The notes under the pieces are model-generated. The model had not been told where the DNA came from, made no database searches, and saw only the letters and a program-made list of their open reading frames with translations. Below, in pieces: positions 12,600 to 59,886 of a stretch of DNA of 64,000 bases (positions within the stretch are counted from its first letter, which is position 1; each line of letters starts with the position of its first letter). The translations under genes and the position numbers were made by a program. The DNA is from Isoperla grammatica (taxonomy: Eukaryota; Arthropoda; Insecta; Plecoptera; Perlodidae): contig OX246743.1 in the NCBI GenBank assembly GCA_945910005.1, forward strand, positions 37,603,398 to 37,667,397, read 5' to 3'.

Positions 12600-13180
12600 G
12601 TTACGGCATACCACACGAGTATTTTGCACCTACCTGGCACATCCTGGCACGCTGCAGAGGGCGCCAGGAGCGTCGTGACGTCATAGACACGTTTCAATTA
12701 ATAACGTTTGAACGGTTTATGTCACAGAAAATATCAAGAGGACAATTTTATGATGTCATACAAGAAAAGCATTTATAACCTATCTGCCACATTATGGCGG
12801 GCTGCAGAGGGCGCCAGGAGCGTCGTGACGTCATATACACGTTTGAACTAATAACGTTTGAACGGTTCATGTCACAGAAAATATGTAGGCGACAATTATA
12901 CTATAAAATACTATACGAGTATTTTGCACCTACCTGGCAAATCCTGGCACGTTGCAGAGGGCGCCAGGAGCGTCATGACGTCATAGACACGTTTTAATTA
13001 ATAACGTTTGAACGGTTAATGTCACAGAAAATGTTAAGGGCACAATTCTATTACAAAATACTATTTGAGTATTTTGCATCTACTTGTTACATCGTGGCAC
13101 GCTGCAGAGGGCGCCAGGAGCGTCGTGACGTCATACACTTTTTCATTAATAACTTTTGAACGGTTCATATCACAGAAAAT
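12600..13180. repeat. 150-bp subrepeats with TGACGTCA, left arm
   Basis: Four units at an exact or near-exact 150-bp spacing each contain GCAGAGGGCGCCAGGAGCGT followed by the CRE-type palindrome TGACGTCA (about 12677, 12827, 12977 and 13127). Each unit continues with AATAACGTTTGAACGGTT. The mirror array lies in the right arm. Confidence 0.85.
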
Positions 13181-13492
13181 ATCAAGATGAAAATATTATA
13201 GACAATTTAAATACAAATCGATTGATATGTACCAATAGGGTAATCATGCAATATTTAAGAGAGATATTGCTAACAAATAATAATAATTAGATGTGTATAT
13301 TAAATGCAGGGCATCCCTCATCGTAATATCTATTTATAACTATTTCGGAGTTATAATTGTATCGCTGTGAAGGACTAAATAATCGTAGTCATCCCAACAT
13401 ATCCATGGATATCTGTTGTTTAACAATTATAATAATTATTATTATTGTGTATTAGTTACTATTCATAGACTGATTAGTAAAACTCACGTTTG

Positions 13493-13867
13493 TTAGAAGT
13501 TCTCTTTATCTTCATCATCATTGTCTTCATCCTCATCTCCCGTGTTGTCGGTATTCAAGCACTCTTGTTCCTCGTCTTCAGTTGAGCAGCCACAAAGCTC
13601 GGTGCACCTCATGTTATTTGCTTTGCAGCTGCATCTTGACGCACACCTTGATTTTAAGCAGTTGACGGCAGCCGGTGCAGGTTCGAGGGTTGTCATGACT
13701 GCCACATACTCGTTGCTCTCAAGTAGCCATCCGTAGTCTTCGGGTAATAAGTTGATAGGGTTGGCAACCTGGTCATTATGCCACACCCAGCATTGATGGT
13801 GAGCACGAAGTATGGCTTGGAGATATGCGGCTTTGCTGGGTGGAAGCTTTTGGTGGGTGCTTGGCAA
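13493..13867 (-). CDS. Transposon-encoded Cys-rich (CXC-like) C-terminal domain, left-arm copy
   Basis: About 124 codons, open to the stop. Features: LPPSKAAYLQAILRAHHQCW, YGWLLESNEYVAVM, the cysteine cluster CLKSRCASRCSCKANNMRC then CTELCGC, and an acidic tail rich in D and E. The cysteine pattern is like the C-terminal zinc-binding region of proteins commonly encoded by invertebrate transposons. The first codon is TTG, so this is the 3' end of a longer ORF and not a complete protein. It lies wholly inside the left inverted repeat, so it has a mirror copy at 15172-15543. The function is DNA- or zinc-binding by inference only. Confidence 0.6.
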   Translation of the reverse strand: MPSTHQKLPPSKAAYLQAILRAHHQCWVWHNDQVANPINLLPEDYGWLLESNEYVAVMTTLEPAPAAVNCLKSRCASRCSCKANNMRCTELCGCSTEDEEQECLNTDNTGDEDEDNDDEDKENF

Positions 13868-14332
13868 GACTTTTTGTGAAACATGCGCTATCGAAGGTCA
13901 GACACTGAGCTCAGTTTAGTGAATGGACAGTACAGTTTGCAAACAAACTTCTCTAGACCACTTATCACGGAGTCTTTTAGAGCAAAAGTTTAACCTAGTT
14001 ATTTAAATATTGAAAATATTTCATAGTCGGATTCTTCCACACACCAGCACTTGTGAGAATCTAGCCAAACTTCTTATAATGCGCATTGACAACAGTTAAA
14101 GTGAGTTTTCAGAGGTCCACGTGGTATGGTATTTGATAGATATGACATTCCTGTTTCATTACAATCGGCTACTCGAAAGACCCGGCAAGGAGGAAAAGCT
14201 GCTGTAGCTTATCGCATTACAGACAACACGCCCATCGGGCACTTGAGCATGTCGTAACTACTTGGTCACACCAAAACCAAGTATGAGCTAACAGAATATT
14301 TTTCACAGAAGATAATTCGAGCCTCACAGGCC

Positions 14333-14689
14333 ATGGAGCGACAAACAGTTGTCGCATGGAGTGACAAGACTATTAGTACAAAAACACTTCTACCACACTT
14401 GAATAGTGAACAAGAAGAAACCGATACAAAGATGTTGCTTCATGCAGTAGATGCGACAAAACGAGGAGCTACTCAAACATCTATATTTTCCCCAGATACA
14501 GATGTCCTTATCCTGGCACTGCGACGTTACACCGATCTCTGTACAAATACTGTGTTCATTACATGTAAAGGACGAAATAATAGAAGGATAGCACTTGGGT
14601 CACTATACAACACACTTAGGCACAATCAAGTTTCAGGACTAACTGGATTTCACGCTTTCAGTGGTTCCGACAACACTGGGGGATTTTAA
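14333..14689 (+). pseudogene. XPG/PIN-like nuclease domain fragment of Academ-like transposase
   Basis: Encodes EQEETDTKMLLHAVDATKRG, SPDTDVLILALRRY and GFHAFSGSDNTGGF, then a stop. The D-rich SPDTDVL motif is typical of the nuclease-like domain in many transposon-derived invertebrate proteins. The family protein normally continues well past the GSDNTG motif, so this copy is truncated. After the stop, a stray piece of the arm subrepeat (14740-14810) follows. Upstream, 14100-14330 shows related but frame-broken coding sequence. Confidence 0.6.
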
Positions 14690-15543: not shown

Positions 15544-15879
15544 AACAAACGTGAGTTTTACTAATCAGTCTATGAATAGTAACTAATACACAATAATAAT
15601 AATTATTATAATTGTTAAACAACAGATATCCATGGGTATGTTGGGATGACTACGATTATTAAGTCCTTCACAGCGATACAATTATAACTCCGAAATAGTT
15701 ATAAATAGATTTTACGATGAGGGATGCCCTGCATTTCATATACACATCTAATTATTATTATTTGTTAGCAATATCTCTCTTAAATATTGCATGATTACCC
15801 TATTGGTACATATCAATCGATTTGTATTTAAATTGTCTATAATATTTTCATCTTGATATTTTCTGGAATATGAACCGTT

Positions 15880-16430
15880 CAAAAGTTATTAATGAAAAAG
15901 TGTATGACGTCACGACGCTCCTGGCTCCCTCTGCAGCGTGCCACGATGTGGCAAGTAGGTGCAAAATACTCAAATAGTATTTCGTAATAGAATTGTTTCC
16001 TTGACATTTTCTGTGGCATGAACCGTTCAAACGTTATTAATTAAAACGTGTCTATGACGTCATGACGCTCCTGGCGCCCTCTGCAGCGTGCCAGGATTTG
16101 CCAGGTAGGTGAAAAATACTCGTATAGTATTTTATAGTATAATTGTCGCCTACATATTTTCTGTGACATGAACCGTTCAAACGTTATTAGTTCAAACGTG
16201 TATATGACGTCACGACGCTCCTGGCGCCCTCTGCAGCCCGCCAGAATGTGGCAGATAGGTTATAAATGCTTGTCTAGTATGACATCATGAAATTGTCCTC
16301 TTGATATTTTCTGTGACATAAACCGTTCAAAAGTTATTAATTAAAACGTGTCTATGACGTCACGACGCTCCTGGCGCCCTCTGCAGCGTGCCAGGATGTG
16401 CCAGGTAGGTGCAAAATACTCGTGTGGTAT
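15880..16430. repeat. 150-bp subrepeats with TGACGTCA, right arm
   Basis: Inverted counterpart of 12600-13180. Four units carry TGACGTCA at about 15905, 16055, 16205 and 16355, each followed by ACGCTCCTGGCGCC or a one-base variant. Confidence 0.85.
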
Positions 16431-23048: not shown

Positions 23049-26000
23049 GATAGTCCAGCATCAAAGTGTCGAAAATCATAGACCTGTGCAATTTCGAGGA
23101 AAGAGTATAGCACCATATACCAATGTGTTCATGAGGTTTTACAGTATTTAGCGCACTTTGGTGCCAGAGCGATATCCGCGACTGGGGGCGGGGGCGGTGC
23201 CCCCAATTTTGACTACACTTTGCATTGAATATCGCTCAATTACGGCCAAACGGTTGGTCTGACAACGAAAATGATGATTATAAAATATATTTGTGTGTAA
23301 TTGATAAATATTTCCTTGTCACAATTATTCATGTACGGTACATATTGCGAAAGTTATCGTCAATTAAGTATAAAATTAATATATTCTCAATATATAAAAC
23401 CATGGGACAACTATATATTATCGAAGCATTACAAACACATTCATACACGTATAAAAATGTCAGAGTGTTGCCATATCGGTGATTTTTTTTCATAATTTTA
23501 TCTTTAAGCGATTGGTATTAGTGAAGTATTAAAGACAAGAATGCGTGGGGCTTTTGTGCGCCCGCTAAACACAGGTGTAATGCATAGAAGCATTGGCAAT
23601 CATAATATTGTACTATTTCGAAAGAAAAGTACATTTATATCTTCGTTTTAGCTTGTAAAATAATAATTTGGATGGTGCCAAGCTCCAAAATTAGGCGTTT
23701 ACAAGTTATACATAAAAAACAAAATGGCCGACTCTCATGACGTTTTTCCTATTTATCTTCACAATCGTGCATTTTTTGGCAAAACTTAATAAGACAAAAA
23801 TTGTTGCTAGTAACATTCTACACACATATAATACTTGGATATTTTCATAGGAAGTACTACTTACGTACAAATTTAATTTTTGTATGTGTGCATCTGAACT
23901 CAAATGTACAAAACTTGGCTCCCGTTCGCTTCTTGATGAAGCAACTGGGACCTACGAGAGTGTTCTTAATATCTTCTTTTAAGCTCATCAAATAATAATA
24001 TTGATGGTGTCAAGCTCCAATGATAGTCGTTTACGAGTTGCATGTGAAAAACAAAATGGCTGTCACTTCAGGTGGTTTTGGCAATTTATCTTCATAACCG
24101 TACTATTTATGACAAAATCTAACATGACAAAAAATATTCCTTGTAAAATTCTACATACAATTCATATTCAGGTATTTTCATATGATTTACCATTTATCTA
24201 CAAATTTAGATTTGTGTATGTTAATCTGTACTCAAATGTACAAGCATTGGCTCCCCTGGGCTACCTAATGAAGCAAGTACGGACTATAGGAGTGGGCTCA
24301 ATCTCTTCCTTTTAACTTATAGAATAATAATTTCGATGGTGCCAAACTCAAGTATTAGGCGTTCAAGAGAAACACGTAAAAAAAAAGAAACATTTTAGTA
24401 CTAATTAACATGGAGAAATTTTAATTTTTAGGTTAATAGTAAGTCCTATAGAAATATGTAAATATCATATGTGTGTACAATTTTACAAGAACTAATTTTT
24501 GTCATATTAAATTTTGTCATAAAACATACGGTTATGACGGTAAATTGGAAAAACTACCTATAGTGGTGGCCATTTTGTATTTTACGTGTAACTCGATAAT
24601 GCCCCATATTTAAGGTAGGCACCATCACAATTATTACTTTATAAGCTATAAAGAAGAGATTGAGCCCACTTCTATACTTGCTTCATCAAACAACCGACGG
24701 ATGTACATCTGAATACACCCTATTGGCGGGCATTTTGTTTTTTGCGTGTTTCTCTTGAACGCCTAGTACTTGAGTTTCGCACCATCAAAATTATTATTCT
24801 ATAAGCTAAAAGGAAGAGATTGAGCCCACTCCCATAGTCCATACTTGCTTCATCAAGTAGCCCAGGGGAGCCAATGCTTGTACATTTGAGTACAGATTAA
24901 CATACACAAATCTAAATTTGTAGGTAAATGGTAAATCATATGAAAATACCTGAATATGAATTGTATGTAGAATTTTACAAGGAGTATTTTTTGTCATGTT
25001 AGATTTTGTCATAAATAGTACTGTTATGAAGATAAATTGCCAAACCCACCTGAAGTGACAGCCATTTTGTTTTTCACATGCAACTCGTAAACGCCTATCA
25101 TTGGAGCTTGGCACCATCAATATTATTATTTGATGAGCTTAAAAGAAGATAATAAGACCACTCCCGTAGGTCACAGTTGCTTCATCAAGAAGCGAACGGG
25201 AGCCAAGTTTTGTACATTTGAGTTCAGATGCACACATACAAAAATTAAATTTGTACGTAAGTAGTACTTTCTATGAAAATATCCAAGTATTATAAGTGTG
25301 TAGAATGTTACTAGCAACAATTTTTGTCATATTAAGTTTTGCCAAAAAATGCAGGATTGTGAAGATAAATAGGAAAAACCTCATGAGAGTCGGCCATTTT
25401 GTTTTTTATGTATAACTGGTAAACGCCTAATTTTGGAGATTAGCACCATCCAAATTATTATTTCACAAGCTAAAACGAAGATATAAGTGTACTTTTCTTT
25501 CGAAATAGTACAATATTATGATTGCCAATGCTTCTATGCATTACACCTGTGTTTAGCGGGCGCACAAAAGCCCCACGCATTCTTGTCTTTAATACTTCAC
25601 TTATAACAATCGCTTGAAGATAAAATTATGAAAAAAAATCACCGATATGACAACACTCCGACATTTTTATACGTGTATGAATTTGTTTGTAATTTTTTGA
25701 TAATATATGTTTGTCCCATGGTTTTAAATATTGAGAATATATTAATTTTATACTTAATTGACGATAACTTTCGCACTATGTATCGTACATGAATAATTGT
25801 GACAAGGAAATATTTATCAATTAAACACAAATATATTTCATTTCCTCATTTTCGTTGTCAGACCAACCGTTTGGCCGTAATTGAGCGATATTCAATGCAA
25901 TGCGTAGTCAAAATTGGGGGCACCGCCCCCGCCCCCAGTCGCGGATATCGCTCTGGCACCAAAGTGCGCTAAATACTGTGAAACCTTATGAACACATTGG

Positions 26001-48060: not shown

Positions 48061-49313
48061 GGACCTACATTATGCTATTTATCAACCTAACCTTTTAAGT
48101 GTTCATTGCAGGGGAAATCAAATAATTGGAGTATAGTCAGGTATGCATACAAGATGGTATTTATTTTCTATGTCAGTTGCCAGGTGTTACACATAAACAC
48201 ATCTTCCATAGGTACTACATAAAACATGAGATACATATATAACTTGTCTACTTAGTATGATGCTTGTGAAGAACTGTGAGATTACAATTATGAATACCTA
48301 CTGACATTTTTATTTGCACTGTCTGCTTTGAAATGGAAATGTTTGGTATCAAGTTCTAACTACCTGTAAGCCGATTTAGGTAATACTCATAAATCATGAG
48401 CACTCACCCCCCATTTTATTATTTTAATGTTACCTTTGACCTTTTGTGACCATCACACTTTTCTCAATTTAACATTTACAAAGTTTGTAATGAAATCAAC
48501 AAATCTATTTTTTGTTTACAACTTTCATGTATTCACAGTATTAAAAAATTAATAGCTGTTATACATTGAAGTAACCCTATTTTATAGGTCCACATTTGAA
48601 ATAATTAAAATCTACCTACATTTCTTTACATTTGATTATAACTGGCATTCCAGTTGTATAAATATGATTTTCACATTTATTGGGCAACTGTCAATCAAGG
48701 AACGTACAATTCTATGAAATTCGCAATTTCAAAATTTCTTATACAAACAAGAATAATGCTTTGAAGATTATGGCTGATAGTGATAACCGTCGTTGCTTTA
48801 ACACCTTTCAAATATAGAATGGCAAAACTGACAGTGTATTTTCTTCTCCATTATTTTACCATTTTTGCACATAGTATAAAGGCCAGTAGTACTACTTATA
48901 TTAGATCACTCATGATGGGAAATGAATACTAGATGTGTACATATGCCTACACCAAAATAAGTAACCTAGTACTGTCAACCAAGTAAAGCATTGCATGGAT
49001 GAACTGGTTCCCAATAACCAGTTATTAATTAACTTCAGAAGAGCACAGCCGTACAGCTCATACTCACTAATAGAAACATACCTAATTTAGGGTCAAAGTG
49101 CCAATGGCACAAAACACAGAAAATACGAAGAAAGAAAATACATTACATTCAAAGTGTTTGTTTGTAAATTGTATCAATGTAGATGATAGTGCAAAAAATG
49201 ATCCCGCTTTTTAAAAACTGTTGCTTGGTTTTTAAGTAACCGATAGGTACGTAACATTGTTTTTAAATACGTTCGTATCTTCACTGTTAATATTTTTTCA
49301 CTTTTATCTTCAT

Positions 49314-51758
49314 TCATTTTAGTAACGACCACTTTAGTTGTTCCTTTGCTGACTGCAATACCTGTAATTACAAAACATTTGTATTTCACTTAAATTCAAT
49401 TCCAATATCACCTACGTCTACCTAGTCAAGTCTTTAGTTTTACATATTTGAAAACATAACAATGCCAACCATATGGCAAACTCTACTTGATATCCCAGAA
49501 TAGCACTTTAACAGGGAAGGATACCTCTAAGTCAAAAACCGCACAAAATTTTCATTTTTAAATTATATCACAAGAATGGGCTTCGAAATCGAAAATCTGA
49601 ATCAACAGCGCACTGTGGTTTAGTAAGTCCTACACATTGAATGCGCTTAGTCGTAACTTATATTATAATCAGTATATGTTTTTATAAATAATTAATTGTA
49701 TTACTGATTATCTAATTATAATCAAAATACTACACTAATGGTTATAATATTTTATTCAATCTGTAGGGCTTACCAAAGCAAAGTGCGCTGCTGATTTAGA
49801 TTTTCGATTTCTTGTTGCAATCTTGAGATATAATTTAATAATGAACATTTTGTGTGGTTTTTGACGTAGAGACTACCATTTGCCCTTAAGGCCGGCCAGC
49901 TACAATTACCGTACCTGTGCAACAGTTTGCTCTCCTAGTGGAATGTCGTCCGTTCTCAGGGCCACTCGCTGCACGACAGCAGAAGAATCGGCTTCCATGA
50001 TGATACTGAAACAACAACATCTATAATTTTTAGAGAGTGAAATGATTAAATGGAAATTTTAATTCATTTTTTTATTTTATGTAAACCCTGCAGCTGTATG
50101 TTTATTATTATTCCGTATCTCGATCTTCTAAAGATGCAGATTTTGGGTTGTCAATAAACAAAACTACATTTTATTTCTCTTGCAATGGGTAGGTATAATG
50201 CTTGAAAAATGCTGAATCGATTATTGACCGTTTTGGAAAATAGCCCGTATCGAATATCAAACGGCAACCCTAGCAGAAGCCTATCACACTTCCAAATTTA
50301 AAAAAATTAAAAACAGGTGTATACATTATGATAGTTTGGCATCTGACAAAATGTAGTTTACAAGACTGTCTTCTTACCCTCCGTCACATATTTCATCCAT
50401 GGCCAACATAACGATGTCCAAGTTCTCCAAGACAACTCTCTTCTCTACGTTCTTCCGGAGAATCTGACTCACAGCATCGTACAGACAATTCAGTACGCTC
50501 ATCAGAATAAGCTGAAAAGAAAATAAGTTCTAGTTCAATTCAGGTAAACATTTAGCCTATATATCTCTGAGGGTTCCACTGCAAAAGGCATGCAAAAAGA
50601 GTTGGAATTGTAATATTAACCAGGTAGGGTAAAAAGGTGGCTTCGGAGATGCACTGGTTGAAAAAATAGTGTCACATGTACCTACGTCAGTCAACCCCAC
50701 TCAAGTTGAATGAAATGTAATTAGTCTGTAAAACAAGAAGTATCATATCTAAATAAAAAAAACATGCACAGGTACTACGAAGCATGCAAGTTCAGCATAT
50801 ATTATATTTACCTCGTTTTCATGCGAGCAACCCATGACGTAGAAGAAAAGGTCCACGTTACTTCGATACACACACGTCAAGCCATCTAGCATGATAATCT
50901 CTGCGTTTGCTCTGTGGGTCTTGCTGAACAAATTCTTCTCGAATGCCTTCTGTTCCTTGGCCAGTGGAAATACATGTTTGTCGTAGTATTTTGCAAGGAT
51001 ACGATTGCCGTCGTTGTCGAGGATCGCCATCCCCTTAATGGTGTATAACGTTGGTTCCTGAATTTAAAAGAAAGTTATTGTAATTTGATGGGTGAAAAAT
51101 TGTACATCCATACAGGAAAAAGGAAGTAATGGCAGTGAAAAAAAGGTTTAGGGGAAGGCAGCAAGGAGAGTTACAAGAGAGTTAAAAGATGAAAAAATGC
51201 AACTTCAATGAGAATACAAACTTTGAATCATTAGGATTTGTTTTTGCAAGGCCTACACCAGTCCGTACACATTAGTTAGTTGGAAAGAGCGACAAACATT
51301 CGAACTTCGGCATTTTATGGCCTATACAAAAGGTATTTTAAACACAATGCCTAGGCCCTAGGTCGAGCCTGTAGCTCATAGCATGTAGGCCTACCTATGA
51401 GGCTATGACCTAACAACTGCATGCAAATTAATAACATTAAAAAACAGGGCACTAGTCTTTGCACTGAACACAAATAGCGCGAACATACAATGACTATAGG
51501 TCGCCTAGCCTAGGCCTAGTCTCAAGCCGGGGCCAAACCCAAAATGTGAAATTTTGTTAGGTTATGATCTCATTGATAGGCTTGCCTGTCAACACTATTT
51601 TATTTGAAAACGCGAAGTGGTATGGTATTAGCGAAATAATTCATGTGTCTCCATACAAGATAAATTAAACAAGAACTAAAGCTATTTTGCTCTTACATTT
51701 ATTACGGAATAGGCCTAATTGATATTATTGCAATACATACCAAAAGTAGACCCTCCAT
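49314..51758 (-). CDS. COPZ1: Coatomer subunit zeta-1, 5 exons
   Basis: Small subunit of the COPI coat, partner of gamma-COP in the F-subcomplex, acting in Golgi-to-ER and intra-Golgi vesicle budding. Minus-strand coding exons: 51741-51758, 50812-51057, 50378-50511, 49915-50005 and 49314-49361. Phases agree, giving about 178 residues (human 177). The protein starts MEGLLL, continues [20 protein letters not shown] and [20 protein letters not shown], carries the longin-type core ([47 protein letters not shown]) and ends [15 protein letters not shown]. Every piece matches the family in order. A TTAA-type MITE sits in the last intron. The start lies 354 bp from the divergent RHBDD1 start. The first exon has only 18 coding bases. 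Confidence 0.96.
49508..49889. mobile_element. TTAA-flanked MITE, copy 1, in COPZ1 intron 4
   Basis: Ends carry GGAAGGATACCTCTA and TACGTCAAAA-type sequence in inverted order, bounded by TTAA at both ends (49508-49511 and 49886-49889). It is a diverged relative of 58987-59370. The TTAA duplication fits piggyBac- or Kolobok-mobilised elements; which one is not decided. Confidence 0.7.
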
Positions 51759-52112: not shown

Positions 52113-55100
52113 ATGCAGCGTCGACGGGACAGGGGGATAGATTTGGGGGTTTTGATGCTAGTATTTGAAATGTTTAATGTTGGTTTTGATGAAATTCCAA
52201 TTGTGACGTTAGTAACTATATTAGGACAGGTGAGTTTTGGAACTGAAGGTGTCCATTAAGGTTAGGGTTGTCCTAACTTACTTTCACTGGTTTACGCCAG
52301 CCTACTACGCCTGCTTTATTTATTAATATTTAATTATGTTTTATTTATTCAAGTGTAAATTCAGCATCTAGATTAAAACTTCCGGTAATTGTACAGTATC
52401 GCCTTAGATTATACAGCTGGTATCGCTGATCGCGTTTCGTACTCACTTTTCGTGGGATGTCGGGCAGCTAGGCCCTAGGCCAAGATCGACCAAATACAAT
52501 AACCCCCCCTAACCTCGGGCAAAGTCACTTTCGAGCACAAATCGGTTAGGGGGGGTTATTGTATCTGGTCGATCTTGGCATAGCTGCCTGACATCCCACG
52601 CAAAAAAGTGAGTACGAAACGCTATCAGCGATACTGTACAATTACCATGAATGATAATGGCCTCATTATTATTAATTGTATGCATAGCCTAGTTTTATTT
52701 AAGGTCCTCTTTTGTAAATCAGTTTTTATAACTGAATAGGACAGACATTAAATAAATAAAATAAAATAGACTGCCTGATCGGTCTGGTCACTGTATGGTA
52801 CATGGTCATCACAGCCATTTTTTGCTTCCCTTTCAAAACTTTTGAGTAGCTGGAATGATTTGTAAATAACCTATATTCTGGTAGGCCTTACTGAAAATTT
52901 TTATAGTTAATGATCAACTGAGAGCAAATATCTTGGTTCCAGGTGTTGTTATTTATTGGCATTGTCAACGTTCCTTGGGACAAAGAGGATGTCTGTATCA
53001 GCAGTGAAACAGTTCTAAAGAAACACGATTACAAGAGACTTATTATTTCAATGTTTGAGCATGGCGACGATCTACACCTCTACTACAATATGATATCGTT
53101 TCTTGTAAAAGGACGGTCACTGGAAACCCGCTATGGAAGTACCAACTTTGCACTATTTCTCGCAACAATAGGCGTATTAACGAGCTGCATGTACGTCGCC
53201 CTGGGAGAACTTGGATTGATGCTGATGAGGGATGAATATTACATCAAATCGTGCGCAATTGGATTTTCAGGTAATCTACATTGAAAGTGATGGTTAACTT
53301 AAAAACATATTTTGTGTTTTGTTTTACGGGTAGTGACCACGGTCCGATATTAGCGGGTCTTGCAAGAGGTCAAGAAAGTCATTCTAATAATGTTGGCAGT
53401 TCTGCCGTAGCCGTATGGAATATGTGCCATGCATTGTTCTTCGTGTTATAATGAGTGCTATGTATGTGGCCCACCTACGTTTGGTGCTAGTTACCAGTTG
53501 TGTACTGATTGGAAGTACTAATACTGTGGAGCATGATGGCAAATGAGGGGGGTGGTGTAAAACAAGCACACTCAAGAGCCAATTAGACTAAAAAACGTGC
53601 ATACCCTTGTATGGTTACCACCCCTCCTTCTCTACGTCAGGTTGGGGCATGGGCGGACCGAAGAGGGCCCTTGGTCAAGGCCTGTTAGAGTGGGGGTTTA
53701 GTGTGGAACGGGTGAGCCTATTGACAGGACACGGTGCTGGGTGATTGTGTGTTCCATGTGTTTACTGTAATTTGTAGTATCCAAATAGGCCTATTCGTAG
53801 TTCTAATAAATAATCAACTTTTCTTATGCATTCGTGTAATTAGTGACATTACTCATCATTTACTACCCTAAATCGTCCTTGGAGATGTAGGCCTAACACC
53901 CTTTTCAAACACAATTTTTCCGTACATTTGTTGTTATCTGCATGAGTTAAAAATGCAAGATAGGGTAGGATGTGAATTTTCCCGAAAGAGAATTTTGGAG
54001 GATTGGTATTTAGTGTAATGTTTGTTGTGTCGACAGGCGTGATCTTTGCGCTGAAAGTGGTGACCTCGTACGAAGACCCGCCAACGACGACCATGGTTGG
54101 CGGCATTCCCGTGTCGTCAAAGTACGCGGCGTGGTTGGAGTTGGTCCTGATTCACCTGTTGGTGCCGCGCGCGTCGTTCATGGGTCACTTGGGGGGCATC
54201 TTGGCGGGGCTCGCGTATACCAGCACGCCTTTCGGCACGGCCGTCGATAACCTCATCACCAGCGTCACCGGTAAGCACGGCTAGCACGCCTTTCGGCAGC
54301 GCCGTCGATAACCTCATCACCAGCGTCACCGGTAAGCACGGCTAGCACGCCTTTCGGCACGGCCGTCGATAACCTCATCACGAGCGTCACCGGTAAGCAC
54401 GGCTAGCACGCCTTTCGGCACCGCCGTCGATAACCTCATCACCAGCGTCACCGGTAAGCACGGCTAGCACGCCTTTCGGCACCGCCGTCGATAACCTCAT
54501 CACGAGCGTCACCGGTAAGCACGGCCAGAACGCCTTTCGGCACCGCCGTCGATAACCTCATCACGAGCGTCACCGGTAAGCACGGCTAGCACGCCTTTCG
54601 GCACTGCCGTCGATAACCTCATCACCAGCGTCACAGGTAAGCACGGCTAGCACGCCTTTCGGCAGCGCCCTCGATAACCTCATCACGAGCGTCACCGGTA
54701 AGCACGGCTAGCACGCCTTTCGGCACAGCCGTCGATAACCTCATCACGAGCGTCACCGGTAAGCACGGCTAGCACGCCTTTCGGCACCGCCGTCGATAAC
54801 CTCATCACGAGCGTCACCGGTAAGCACGGCTAGCACGCCTTTCGGCACCGCCGTCGATAACCTCATCACGAGCGTTACAGGTAAGCACGGCTAGCACGCC
54901 TTTCGGCAGCGCCGTCGATAACCTCATCACGAGCGTCACCGGTAAGCACGGCTAGCACGCCTTTCGGCAGCGCCGTCGATAACCTCATCACCAGCGTCAC
55001 CGGTAAGCACGCCTTTCGGCACCGCCGTCGATAACCTCATCACGAGCGTCACCGGTAAGCACGGCTAGCACGCCTTTCGGCACCGCCGTCGATAACCTCA

Positions 55101-58100
55101 TCACGAGCGTCACCGGTAAGCACGGCTAGCACGCCTTTCGGCACCGCCGTCGATAACCTCATCACCAGCGTCACCGGTAAGCACGGCTAGCACGCCTTTC
55201 GGCACCGCCGTCGATAACCTCATCACGAGCGTCACCGGTAAGCACGGCTAGCACGCCTTTCGGCACCGCCGTCGATAACCTCATCACCAGCGTCACAGGT
55301 AAGCACGGCTAGCACGCCTTTCGGCAGCGCCCTCGATAACCTCATCACGAGCGTCACCGGTAAGCACGGCTAGCACGCCTTTCGGCACCGCCGTCGATAA
55401 CCTCATCACGAGCGTCACCGGTAAGCACGGCTAGCACGCCTTTCGGCACGGCCGTCGATAACCTCATCACCAGCGTCACCGGTAAGCACGGCTAGCACGC
55501 CTTTCGGCACCGCCGTCGATAACCTCATCACGAGCGTCACCGGTAAGCACGGCTAGCACGCCTTTCGGCACCGCCGTCGATAACCTCATCACCAGCGTCA
55601 CCGGTAAGCACGGCTAGCACGCCTTTCGGCACCGCCGTCGATAACCTCATCACGAGCGTCACCGGTAAGCACGGCTAGCACGCCTTTCGGCACCGCCGTC
55701 GATAACCTCATCACGAGCGTCACCGGTAAGCACGGCCAGCACGCCTTTCGGCACAGCCGTCGATAACCTCATCACGAGCGTCACCGGTAAGCACGGCTAG
55801 CACGCCTTTCGGCACCGCCGTCGATAACCTCATCACGAGCGTCACCGGTAAGCACGGCTAGCACGCCTTTCGGCACCGCCGTCGATAACCTCATCACGAG
55901 CGTCACCGGTAAGCACGGCTAGCACGCCTTTCGGCACGGCCGTCGATAACCTCATCACGAGCGTCACCGGTAAGCACGGCTAGCACGCCTTTCGGCACCG
56001 CCGTCGATAACCTCATCACGAGCGTCACCGGTAAGCACGGCTAGCACGCCTTTCGGCAGCGCCGTCGATAACCTCATCACCAGCGTCACCGGTAAGCACG
56101 GCTAGCACGCCTTTCGGCAGCGCCGTCGATAACCTCATCACGAGCGTCACCGGTAAGCACGGCTAGCACGCCTTTCGGCACCGCCGTCGATAACCTCATC
56201 ACGAGCGTCACCGGTAAGCACGGCTAGCACGCCTTTCGGCACCGCCGTCGATAACCTCATCACGAGCGTCACCGGTAAGCACGGCTAGCACGCCTTTCGG
56301 CACGGCCGTCGATAACCTCATCACCAGCGTCACCGGTAAGCACGGCTAGCACGCCTTTCGGCACGGCCGTCGATAACCTCATCACGAGCATCACCGGTAA
56401 GCACGGCCAGCACGCCTTTCGGCACGGCCGTCGATAACCTCATCACGAGCGTCACCGGTAAGCACGGCTAGCACGCCTTTCGGCACCGCCGTCGATAACC
56501 TCATCACGAGCGTCACCGGTAAGCACGGCCAGCACGCCTTTCGGCACCGCCGTCGATAACCTCATCACGAGCGTCACCGGTAAGCACGGCTAGCACGCCT
56601 TTCGGCAGCGCCGTCGATAACCTCATCACGAGCGTCACCGGTAAGCACGGCCAGCACGCCTTTCGGCACCGCCGTCGATAACCTCATCACGAGCGTCACC
56701 GGTAAGCACGGCTAGCACGCCTTTCGGCAGCGCCGTCGATAACCTCATCACGAGCGTCACCGGTAAGCACGGCTAGCACGCCTTTCGGCACCGCCGTCGA
56801 TAACCTCATCACCAGCGTCACCGGTAAGCACGGCCAGCACGCCTTTCGGCACCGCCGTCGATAACCTCATCACGAGCGTCACCGGTAAGCACGGCTAGCA
56901 CGCCTTTCGGCAGCGCCGTCGATAACCTCATCACGAGCGTCACCGGTAAGCACGGCTAGCACGCCTTTCGGCACCGCCGTCGATAACCTCATCACGAGCG
57001 TCACCGGTAAGCACGGCTAGCACGCCTTTCGGCACAGCCGTCGATAACCTCATCACGAGCGTCACCGGTAAGCACGGCTAGCACGCCTTTCGGCACCGCC
57101 GTCGATAACCTCATCACGAGCGTCACCGGTAAGCACGGCCAGCACGCCTTTCGGCACCGCCGTCGATAACCTCATCACCAGCGTCACCGGTAAGCACGGC
57201 TAGCACGCCTTTCGGCACCGCCGTCGATAACCTCATCACGAGCGTCACCGGTAAGCACGGCTAGCACGCCTTTCGGCAGCGCCGTCGATAACCTCATCAC
57301 GAGCGTCACCGGTAAGCACGGCTAGCACGCCTTTCGGCACCGCCGTCGATAACCTCATCACGAGCGTCACCGGTAAGCACGGCTAGCACGCCTTTCGGCA
57401 CCGCCGTCGATAACCTCATCACGAGCGTCACCGGTAAGCACGGCTAGCACGCCTTTCGGCACCGCCGTCGATAACCTCATCACGAGCGTCACCGGTAAGC
57501 ACGGCTAGCACGCCTTTCGGCAGCGCCGTCGATAACCTCATCACGAGCGTCACCGGTAAGCACGGCTAGCACGCCTTTCGGCACCGCCGTCGATAACCTC
57601 ATCACGAGCGTCACCGGTAAGCACGGCTAGCACGCCTTTCGGCACCGCCGTCGATAACCTCATCACGAGCGTCACCGGTAAGCACGGCTAGCACGCCTTT
57701 CGGCACCGCCCTCGATAACCTCATCACGAGCGTCACCGGTAAGCACGGCTAGCACGCCTTTCGGCACCGCCGTCGATAACCTCATCACGAGCGTCACCGG
57801 TAAGCACGGCTAGCACGCCTTTCGGCACCGCCGTGGATAACCTCATCACGAGCGTCACCGGTAAGCACGGCTAGCACGCCTTTCGGCACCGCCCTCGATA
57901 ACCTCATCACGAGCGTCACCGGTAAGCACGGCTAGCACGCCTTTCGGCACCGCCCTCGATAACCTCATCACGAGCGTCACCGGTAAGCACGGCTAGCACG
58001 CCTTTCGGCACCGCCGTCGATAACCTCATCACCAGCGTCACCGGTAAGCACGGCTAGCACGCCTTTCGGCACCGCCGTCGATAACCTCATCACGAGCGTC

Positions 58101-59886
58101 ACCGGTAAGCACGGCTAGCACGCCTTTCGGCACGGCCGTCGATAACCTCATCACGAGCGTCACCGGTAAGCACGGCTAGCACGCCTTTCGGCACCGCCGT
58201 CGATAACCTCATCACGAGCGTCACCGGTAAGCACGGCTAGCACGCCTTTCGGCACGGCCGTCGATAACCTCATCACGAGCGTCACCGGTAAGCACGGCTA
58301 GCACGCCTTTCGGCACCGCCGTCGATAACCTCATCACGAGCGTCACCGGTAAGCACGGCTAGCACGCCTTTCGGCACCGCCGTCGATAACCTCATCACGA
58401 GCGTCACCGGTAAGCACGGCCAGCACGCCTTTCGGCACCGCCGTCGATAACCTCATCACCAGCGTCACCGGTAAGCACGGCTAGCACGCCTTTCGGCACG
58501 GCCGTCGATAACCTCATCACAAGCGTCACCGGTAAGCACGGCTAGCACGCCTTTCGGCACGGCCGTCGATAACCTCATCACAAGCGTCACCGGTAAGCAC
58601 GGCTAGCACGCCTTTCGGCACCGCCGTCGATAACCTCATCACCAGCGTCACCGGTAAGCACGGCCAGCACGCCTTTCGGCACCGCCGTCGATAACCTCAT
58701 CACGAGCGTCACCGGTAAGCACGGCTAGCACGCCTTTCGGCACGGCCGTCGATAACCTCATCACGAGCGTCACCGGTAAGCACGGCTAGCACGCCTTTCG
58801 GCACGGCCGTCGATAACCTCATCACGAGCGTCACCGGTAAGCACGGCTAGCACGCCTTTCGGCACCGCCGTCGATAACCTCATCACCAGCGTCACCGGTA
58901 AGCACGGCTAGCACGCCTTTCGGCACGGCCGTCGATAACCTCATCACGAGCGTCACCGGTAAGCACGGCTCGTACTTTAAAAATACTTAAGAGCGAAGGA
59001 TACCTCTACGTCAAAAATCGCAGAAAATTTTCATTTTTTAATTACCTATATCTCAAGATTGAAACACAAAATCGAAAATCTGAGAAATCATAGCGCTGTG
59101 GTTTGGTAAGCCCTACAGACTGAATGATAAATGTATTTAACGTTATAATCAGTATGACTGTGATAACAATTTCCTTAAATTACTATGGAAATCGTTATCA
59201 CAGTCATACTGATTATAACGTTAAATACATTTATCATTCAGTGTGTAGCGCTGACTAAACCACAGTGCTATGATTTCTCAGATTTTCGATTTTGTGTTTC
59301 AATCTTGAGATATAATTAAAAAATGAAAATTTTCTGCGGTTTTTGACGTAGAGGTATCCTTCGCTCTTAACACTTGCCAATTGGGCGAGTGACGATTCTA
59401 ATTAACTAGTACGAAAAGAGAAACACTACCTACCTACTACATTTCCTAGAGTGAAGATATTTTCGATTGACAGCTAACAGTGTCCATGTATTGTAAATAT
59501 AAGGTACATATCTTGACCCCATTTCCAACATTAATTAACGGGGGGGGGGGGGGGGGGGATTAGCAAAGTAAGTACTCCATTTCTTGGTATTATAAATAAA
59601 TAACAACTAACTTTTTTTTTTTTTTTTACTTTCTGTGGCACATTTTTCCTGAGCGACATTTTATCTTCCCTTACGGCTTGCAAAATGTTCTAGGCAAGAA
59701 AATAATATACCGTACGTAGGCCTACCTACTAGGCCTAGTGTTTTCTCTTTCAGAAGGTTCAAATTTTCTGAGCAATTAGAATACGCTGTACATTTTTACA
59801 TGGGAGATTACTGTGTTGTTTCAGATGAACCTCTCATCCATTCTGAGTACTTCTACAGCACAATGCCACAAGCTGATGAGGACTAA
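52113..59886 (+). CDS. RHBDD1: Rhomboid-related protein 4 (RHBDL4), intramembrane serine protease, 4 exons
   Basis: ER-resident rhomboid protease that cleaves membrane proteins for ER-associated degradation. Coding exons: 52113-52229, 52943-53270, 54037-54270 and 59825-59886. Phases 0, 1 and 1 agree, giving about 246 residues. The start MQRRRDRGI aligns with the human start; an upstream in-frame ATG at 52056 is less likely. Signature pieces are FNVGFDEIPIVTL, LHLYYNMISF, the catalytic serine in CAIGFSGVIFALKV (split by an intron inside the GFSG codons) and the catalytic histidine in MGHLGGILAGL. The last exon adds EPLIHSEYFYSTMPQADED. The protein is shorter than human (315) and this last exon lacks the ubiquitin-interacting and VCP-binding tail. 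An alternative 3' exon may exist at 61048. Intron 3 carries about 77 extra copies of the exon 3 donor. Confidence 0.92.
52420..52634. mobile_element. Foldback MITE in RHBDD1 intron 1
   Basis: GGTATCGCTGATCGCGTTTC and GAAACGCTATCAGCGATAC are inverted ends. Pairing extends through GTACTCACTTTT, GGGATGTC and CAATAACCCCCCCTAAC for about 100 bp per arm. Confidence 0.78.
52728..52770 (+). repeat. Retroposon 3' tail
   Basis: TAACTGAATAGGACAGACAT followed by TAAA-type repeats. It resembles 11948-11998, suggesting a shared non-LTR element 3' end. Confidence 0.45.
54222..58970 (+). repeat. 61-bp minisatellite of RHBDD1 exon 3 end plus splice donor, about 78 donors
   Basis: The unit is AGCACGCCTTTCGGCACCGC, then CGTCGATAACCTCATCACGA, then GCGTCACCGGTAAGCACGGCT. 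It joins 49 bp of coding exon end to 12 bp of intron start. The spacing between the first donor (54271) and the last (58959) is 4,688 bp. That equals 77 x 61 minus the 9 bp missing from one short unit near 55000. Variants are few and recurrent: CACCGCC, CAGCGCC, CACGGCC or CACAGCC; CGAGC or CCAGC; CTAGC or CCAGC. GCACG occurs in both the exon end and the intron start, a likely seed for the first duplication. The array is GC-rich in an AT-rich intron. Confidence 0.95.
58987..59370. mobile_element. TTAA-flanked MITE, copy 2, in RHBDD1 intron 3
   Basis: Inverted ends GAGCGAAGGATACCTCTACG and CGTAGAGGTATCCTTCGCTC lie between TTAA at 58987-58990 and 59367-59370. Arms reach about 180 bp, nearly closing at the centre (AACGTTATAATCAGTATGAC and its complement). 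It starts within 20 bp of the end of the 61-bp array. Confidence 0.85.
59371..59824. other. Remainder of RHBDD1 intron 3
   Basis: Contains a G run at 59541-59558 and a T run near 59612-59628. The segment CTTGACCCCATTTCCAACAT (59512) recurs at 62595. The intron ends GTGTTGTTTCAG. Confidence 0.5.

Follow-up and report, generated by a model that had tools for sequence, protein, structure and literature searches.

What becomes of a 5' splice site that has been multiplied 78 times at the end of a coding exon? This question is raised by a locus in an insect gene for a conserved protease, RHBDD1, where a 61-bp tandem array lies across the border between exon 3 and intron 3. The locus is a natural stress test of 5' splice site choice: there are 78 near-identical donors, of which the in-frame one comes first and three stronger ones lie behind it. 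We consider it likely (a probability of roughly three in four) that the array is a minisatellite born on the exon–intron border and removed as intron, that the first donor is normally used, and that the units, including the first, exchange with one another. All positions are those of the 64-kb window, that is, the whole stretch of 64,000 nucleotides analysed.

On the evidence of its sequence, the host gene is a four-exon RHBDD1/RHBL4 rhomboid protease with the array on its exon 3/intron 3 border; all features lie on the plus strand. Exon 1 (52113..52229), placed by homologs, is coding from the ATG at 52113 and ends in the donor CAG|GTGAGT. Exon 2 (52943..53270) carries the GFSG motif, and exon 3 (54037..54270) has 234 nt, the final 49 of which (54222–54270) are the exon part of the first repeat unit. 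Exons 1–3 have GT–AG borders and give an open frame of 226 residues when joined. The Pfam Rhomboid domain (PF01694) is recognized in exon 2 (47.6 bits, E 2.5e-12) and in exon 3 (32.4 bits, E 1.2e-7), both above the cutoff of 22.6. The best named full-length relatives are the rhomboid-related proteins 4 of Cryptotermes, Macrosteles and Anabrus (62–64% along all 226 residues of the query); the two top matches (69% and 66%) are without name, and named matches near the top include termite, leafhopper, katydid, stick insect and cricket. The domain and these relatives confirm the identification as RHBDD1 made in the first-pass annotation. The protein has a GxSG motif followed by a downstream His: S148, in GFSG, and H199 are invariant across 15 aligned sequences, and from rhomboid biochemistry we take S148 to be the catalytic serine and H199 to be likewise catalytic. 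Among solved structures there were no matches.

The array extends from 54222 to 58970 (period 61, 78.0 copies and 97% matches with TRF), and splitting at the donors also gives 78 units, in agreement with the earlier count of about 78 tandem donors. As had been proposed, each unit joins 49 nt from the end of exon 3 to the first 12 nt of intron 3 and contains a 5' splice site consensus. Unit 1 (54222–54282) spans the border itself, its donor lying between 54270 and 54271. The step from donor to donor is 61 bp in 76 of 77 cases and 52 bp in one; this short step (unit 14, 55015..55066) fits a 9-bp loss between two AGCACG words of one unit joint. The unit joint, GGCT|AGCACG, has no homology between its two breakpoints. 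Unit 1 and most later units (75/78 in all) have the identical 11-mer CACCGGTAAGC at the donor; its 75 exact occurrences in the window all fall within the array (shuffle mean 0.01). Units 7 and 18 have CACAGGTAAGC, one base off the common 11-mer, and unit 11 has TACAGGTAAGC, two bases off, the changes lying just before the donor. The donor in these three units is CAG|GTAAGC, stronger than in the other 75. As one continuous sequence, the array has no open frame, with 73–76 stops on the plus strand and 99–102 on the minus strand.

The choice of donor has a simple consequence for the protein. Donor 1 (GT at 54271..54272) is the sole donor joining in frame to the terminal exon, as claimed earlier, and reading through it leads to a TAG at 54282..54284. 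The addition of Gly-Lys-His-Gly and a stop (...VTGKHG) foreseen for later donors or retention is likewise found. The first-pass annotation had also placed this TAG within the repeat unit, which is correct for unit 1 and most units; in 9 of the 78, C replaces the T. The consequence is unchanged: unit 1 has the TAG, so any later donor, or retention, ends the protein at 54282–54284. From this stop it is 47 nt to donor 2 and 108 nt to donor 3. The predicted truncated product would keep the rhomboid domain of exons 2 and 3 and lose the 20-residue tail, with GKHG instead. Exon 3 would grow by about 61 nt with each later donor, to about 4.9 kb with the last (an estimate that ignores the step shorter by 9 bp).

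Beyond the array, the rest of intron 3 (58971..59824) is AT-rich, with a fold-back element at 58987–59370. The terminal exon (59825..59886) encodes the tail DEPLIHSEYFYSTMPQADED, followed by a stop. Of 230 AG-started peptides downstream of the array with five or more residues, it scores by far the best against the C-terminal tails of ten relatives out of 14 (27.0 versus 10.9 for the next, z 6.3). The junction from donor 1 to 59825 reads VT|DEPLIHSEYFYSTMPQADED, and the frame is open from donor 1 to the stop. At the joint a residue that is a near-invariant Gly in relatives is Asp here. The EPLIH tail of the relatives is kept in the terminal exon, which argues that the joining of donor 1 to this exon is still in use. 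The resemblance to relatives' tails also speaks against use of the last donor of the array instead of the first, which we regard as improbable. That donor is the second most accessible of the 78 by prediction, and in vitro work on duplicated donors can be counted in its favour, but its use would need a 4.9-kb exon.

Local properties do not single out donor 1. Pairing with U1, scored with an assumed U1 end and assumed weights, is −8.2 kcal/mol for 75 donors, including that of unit 1, and −11.0 for units 7, 11 and 18. In predicted accessibility unit 1 ranks 48 of 78, and the highest values belong to units 11, 78, 18 and 7. Units 7, 11 and 18 thus combine the three best U1 matches with three of the four most accessible donors, and local strength alone would favour a wrong site. 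An RNA structure that hides or exposes donor 1 was rejected on the same accessibility rank. With no local advantage for the in-frame donor, position must decide, if donor 1 is the one used.

A known system has the same layout. In intron 7 of the human gene for coagulation factor VII (F7), which contains a handful of repeats, Borensztajn and colleagues in 2006 reportedly found that the first element spans the exon–intron border and that later units carry identical but silent donors. These later sites are said to be functional yet non-competing, even with a better match to U1. The first repeat in RHBDD1 likewise holds the authentic 5' splice site and spans the border, and its donor sequence recurs in later units (the 11-mer shared by 75/78). 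The present array differs in having 78 units of 61 bp, against a handful of 37-bp units, in an insect and in another gene; in addition, three later donors are stronger than the first. First-donor use is a prediction here, with which the frame and the kept tail are consistent. With the F7 layout, the RHBDD1 array is a much larger case of the same type, in which use of the first donor is expected. If only this donor is used, the F7 rule would hold in an insect at about a tenfold scale. For the 37-bp repeats of F7 intron 7, PMC6627357 describes the 5' splice site in the first repeat and reports use of the most upstream donor only. The consulted parts of PMC3778950, PMC7373156 and PMC6783214 contain nothing on the F7 repeats.

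Two other groups of cases are related to the array. Intron gain by tandem duplication is proposed, in the parts of the sources consulted, for a potato RdRp gene (PMC4974935) and for Drosophila (PMC2891723). These cases share with the array a tandem copy of genic DNA with splice signals; they propose a new intron, whereas the RHBDD1 array multiplies an existing donor, with no new exon evident. Tandem alternative 5' splice sites, as far as the consulted part of PMC2423196 describes them, also place competing donors near one exon end, but at spacings of a few bases (4 in the named class), in contrast to 78 donors 61 bp apart. No border minisatellite of an insect was found in the literature searched. 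Judged by its anatomy, the array appears to be an extreme new case of the known border-minisatellite type.

The following course of events is proposed. A 61-bp segment across the exon 3/intron 3 border would have been duplicated in tandem and have grown to a minisatellite of 78 units. Donor 1 would normally be the sole donor used: it is transcribed first, and the exon that it ends is of ordinary size (234 nt). Commitment to it could come about by 5'-to-3' oriented scanning, on which work has been done in mammals, or by exon definition. Exon definition and the transcriptional head start would act in the same direction as an F7-like use of the first donor. The 77 other donors would then leave with the intron. 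If splicing leaked to a later donor, or the intron were retained, the protease would lack its last 20 residues and end in GKHG. Exchange between units would homogenize the array; if the coding unit 1 takes part, coding selection would reach the array. The array itself is probably harmless intron ballast.

The first-pass annotation had suggested instead that the 77 extra donors bind U1 as a decoy or competition field, setting how much full-length protease is made relative to the truncated form, with array length tuning this ratio. Several features would suit such a role: a strong donor is kept in 78/78 units, the donors of units 7, 11 and 18 exceed that of unit 1 in strength, and the later donors all yield one defined truncated product. 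Furthermore, junction-dependent decay commonly needs roughly 50 nt between stop and junction, and with donor 2 the distance falls just below this value. We nevertheless consider the suggestion unlikely. Variants are not depleted in the 9-nt donor (one of the 13 variant types described below lies inside, against 1.9 expected, P 0.41), and no selection on the donor was found. The ten-base donor core contains 0/13 types (P 0.10); the units were located with this core as anchor, so that a broken core would appear as a gap in the spacing, and no gap was seen. The F7 precedent, in the part of PMC6627357 consulted, also reports the first donor only. If later donors are used, the C-terminus of a conserved protease could be governed by the length of the array. 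A fuller version, in which U1 along 4.7 kb of donors, bound more strongly at units 7, 11 and 18, diverts some transcripts to the truncated protease while units rotating through the coding slot preserve both donor and peptide, is as doubtful.

The order of the units bears on the history of the array and on the quality of the assembly. There are 19 unit types in mixed order (pi 0.026). No periodicity of unit types was found at lags 1–39 after correction (best single-lag P 0.0245, uncorrected), and block repeats did not exceed those of shuffles in length, the longest repeated run being four unit types; a higher-order repeat was rejected after these tests. No gradient away from unit 1 was detected (distance to unit 1 versus position, rho −0.16, P 0.16), and the difference between units rises weakly with the distance between them (rho 0.085; the pairs are not independent). 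Growth from the coding end is thus unsupported. Long arrays are difficult to assemble, and the sequence comes from one assembly and a single haplotype. An artefact of assembly or a wrong copy number is nevertheless very improbable: the number of types, their non-periodic order and repeated runs no longer than in shuffles are unlike a looped graph, and the flanks continue RHBDD1 on both sides.

The substitutions in the array carry a possible coding imprint. There are 13 variant types over 77 of the 78 units, 12 in the exon part and one in the intron part; unit 14 and the base at the deletion junction (position 59 of unit 13) were omitted. Eight of the 12 exon types are synonymous in the coding frame, where 25 per cent would be expected (37 of 147 possible changes; binomial P 0.003, spectrum-matched P 0.007). 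The other forward frames have 2/12 and 1/12 synonymous types and the minus-strand frames 1/12, 2/12 and 9/12. We know of no minus-strand gene at the array; the 9/12 in one minus-strand frame shows that the counts reflect a clustering of variants in a single codon column, which the two readings have in common. Counted by sites, six of nine are at third positions (P 0.024), one of them with a nonsynonymous change. In the coding frame all 78 units spell a stop-free peptide of 16 residues, identical in 61. The synonymous excess, resting on 12 variant types, suggests exchange between the inner units and the coding unit. It would be suggestive of inner units moving into the coding slot by contraction or exchange, bad ones being lost there, and might be a case of minisatellite units filtered by protein-coding selection.

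Some variants create AG sites (GGCAG in 12/77 units and CACCAG in 17/77), by which units could be spliced among themselves to give cryptic mini-exons. The sequence upstream of the AG in two units examined is 47–59% pyrimidine, compared with 53–59% at the three real acceptors of RHBDD1, but there is no strong polypyrimidine tract, and we regard such splicing as extremely improbable.

Base composition was also considered. In exon 3 upstream of the array GC3 is 0.84, compared with 0.36–0.48 in the other RHBDD1 exons. Local GC-biased conversion as the origin of the GC-rich exon 3 was dropped: GC declines at the edge of the exon, and the four exon pieces of the COPZ1-like neighbour range from 0.26 to 0.62. 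Within the array, S-to-W variants reach fewer copies than S–S variants, a weak difference based on hand-entered counts (P 0.043).

The array was finally compared with the insect's own 874-Mb genome. A query of two units gave at least 35 matches, all inside the array; such counts are lower bounds, with very common words skipped. No second copy of RHBDD1 was found in this genome among 66 candidates scored, three matches being the three exons. At the sensitivity of these searches, array and gene are a single locus. Minisatellites are common in the genome: 140 kb sampled at 14 fixed places contain six arrays of at least 200 bp, the longest of 1.15 kb and the highest copy number 19.6. The 64-kb window contains nine arrays of at least 200 bp, of which that of RHBDD1 is the longest.

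The third exon of the rhomboid protease gene RHBDD1 (54037-54270), whose end is repeated in the 61-bp tandem array, has a GC3 of 0.84-0.88, compared with 0.36-0.48 for the remaining three exons. Intron 1 of the gene contains an inverted repeat at 52450-52640, recognized by eye around CCCCCCTAACC. RHBDD1 is oriented head-to-head with a minus-strand gene (49177-51057), putatively coding for Coatomer zeta (presumably COPZ1-like, a name suggested by its translation).

A near-perfect fold-back element at 58987-59370 starts 16 bp past the end of the array; its self-complementarity is 93 per cent across 390 aligned bases, and a related copy with 72-74 per cent identity is found at 49508-49890.

Two pairs of longer-period arrays are also present in the window. 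The units of the arrays at 12617-13199 and 15852-16430, with a period of 150 bp, resemble reverse complements by eye; the two arrays are perhaps the ends of a single inverted-repeat element, and ORFs are located between them at 13493-13897 and 14258-14689. The arrays at 23637-24363 and 24758-25487, with a period of 332 bp, form an apparent inverted pair on visual inspection, which also revealed closely similar 110-aa ORFs on opposite strands.
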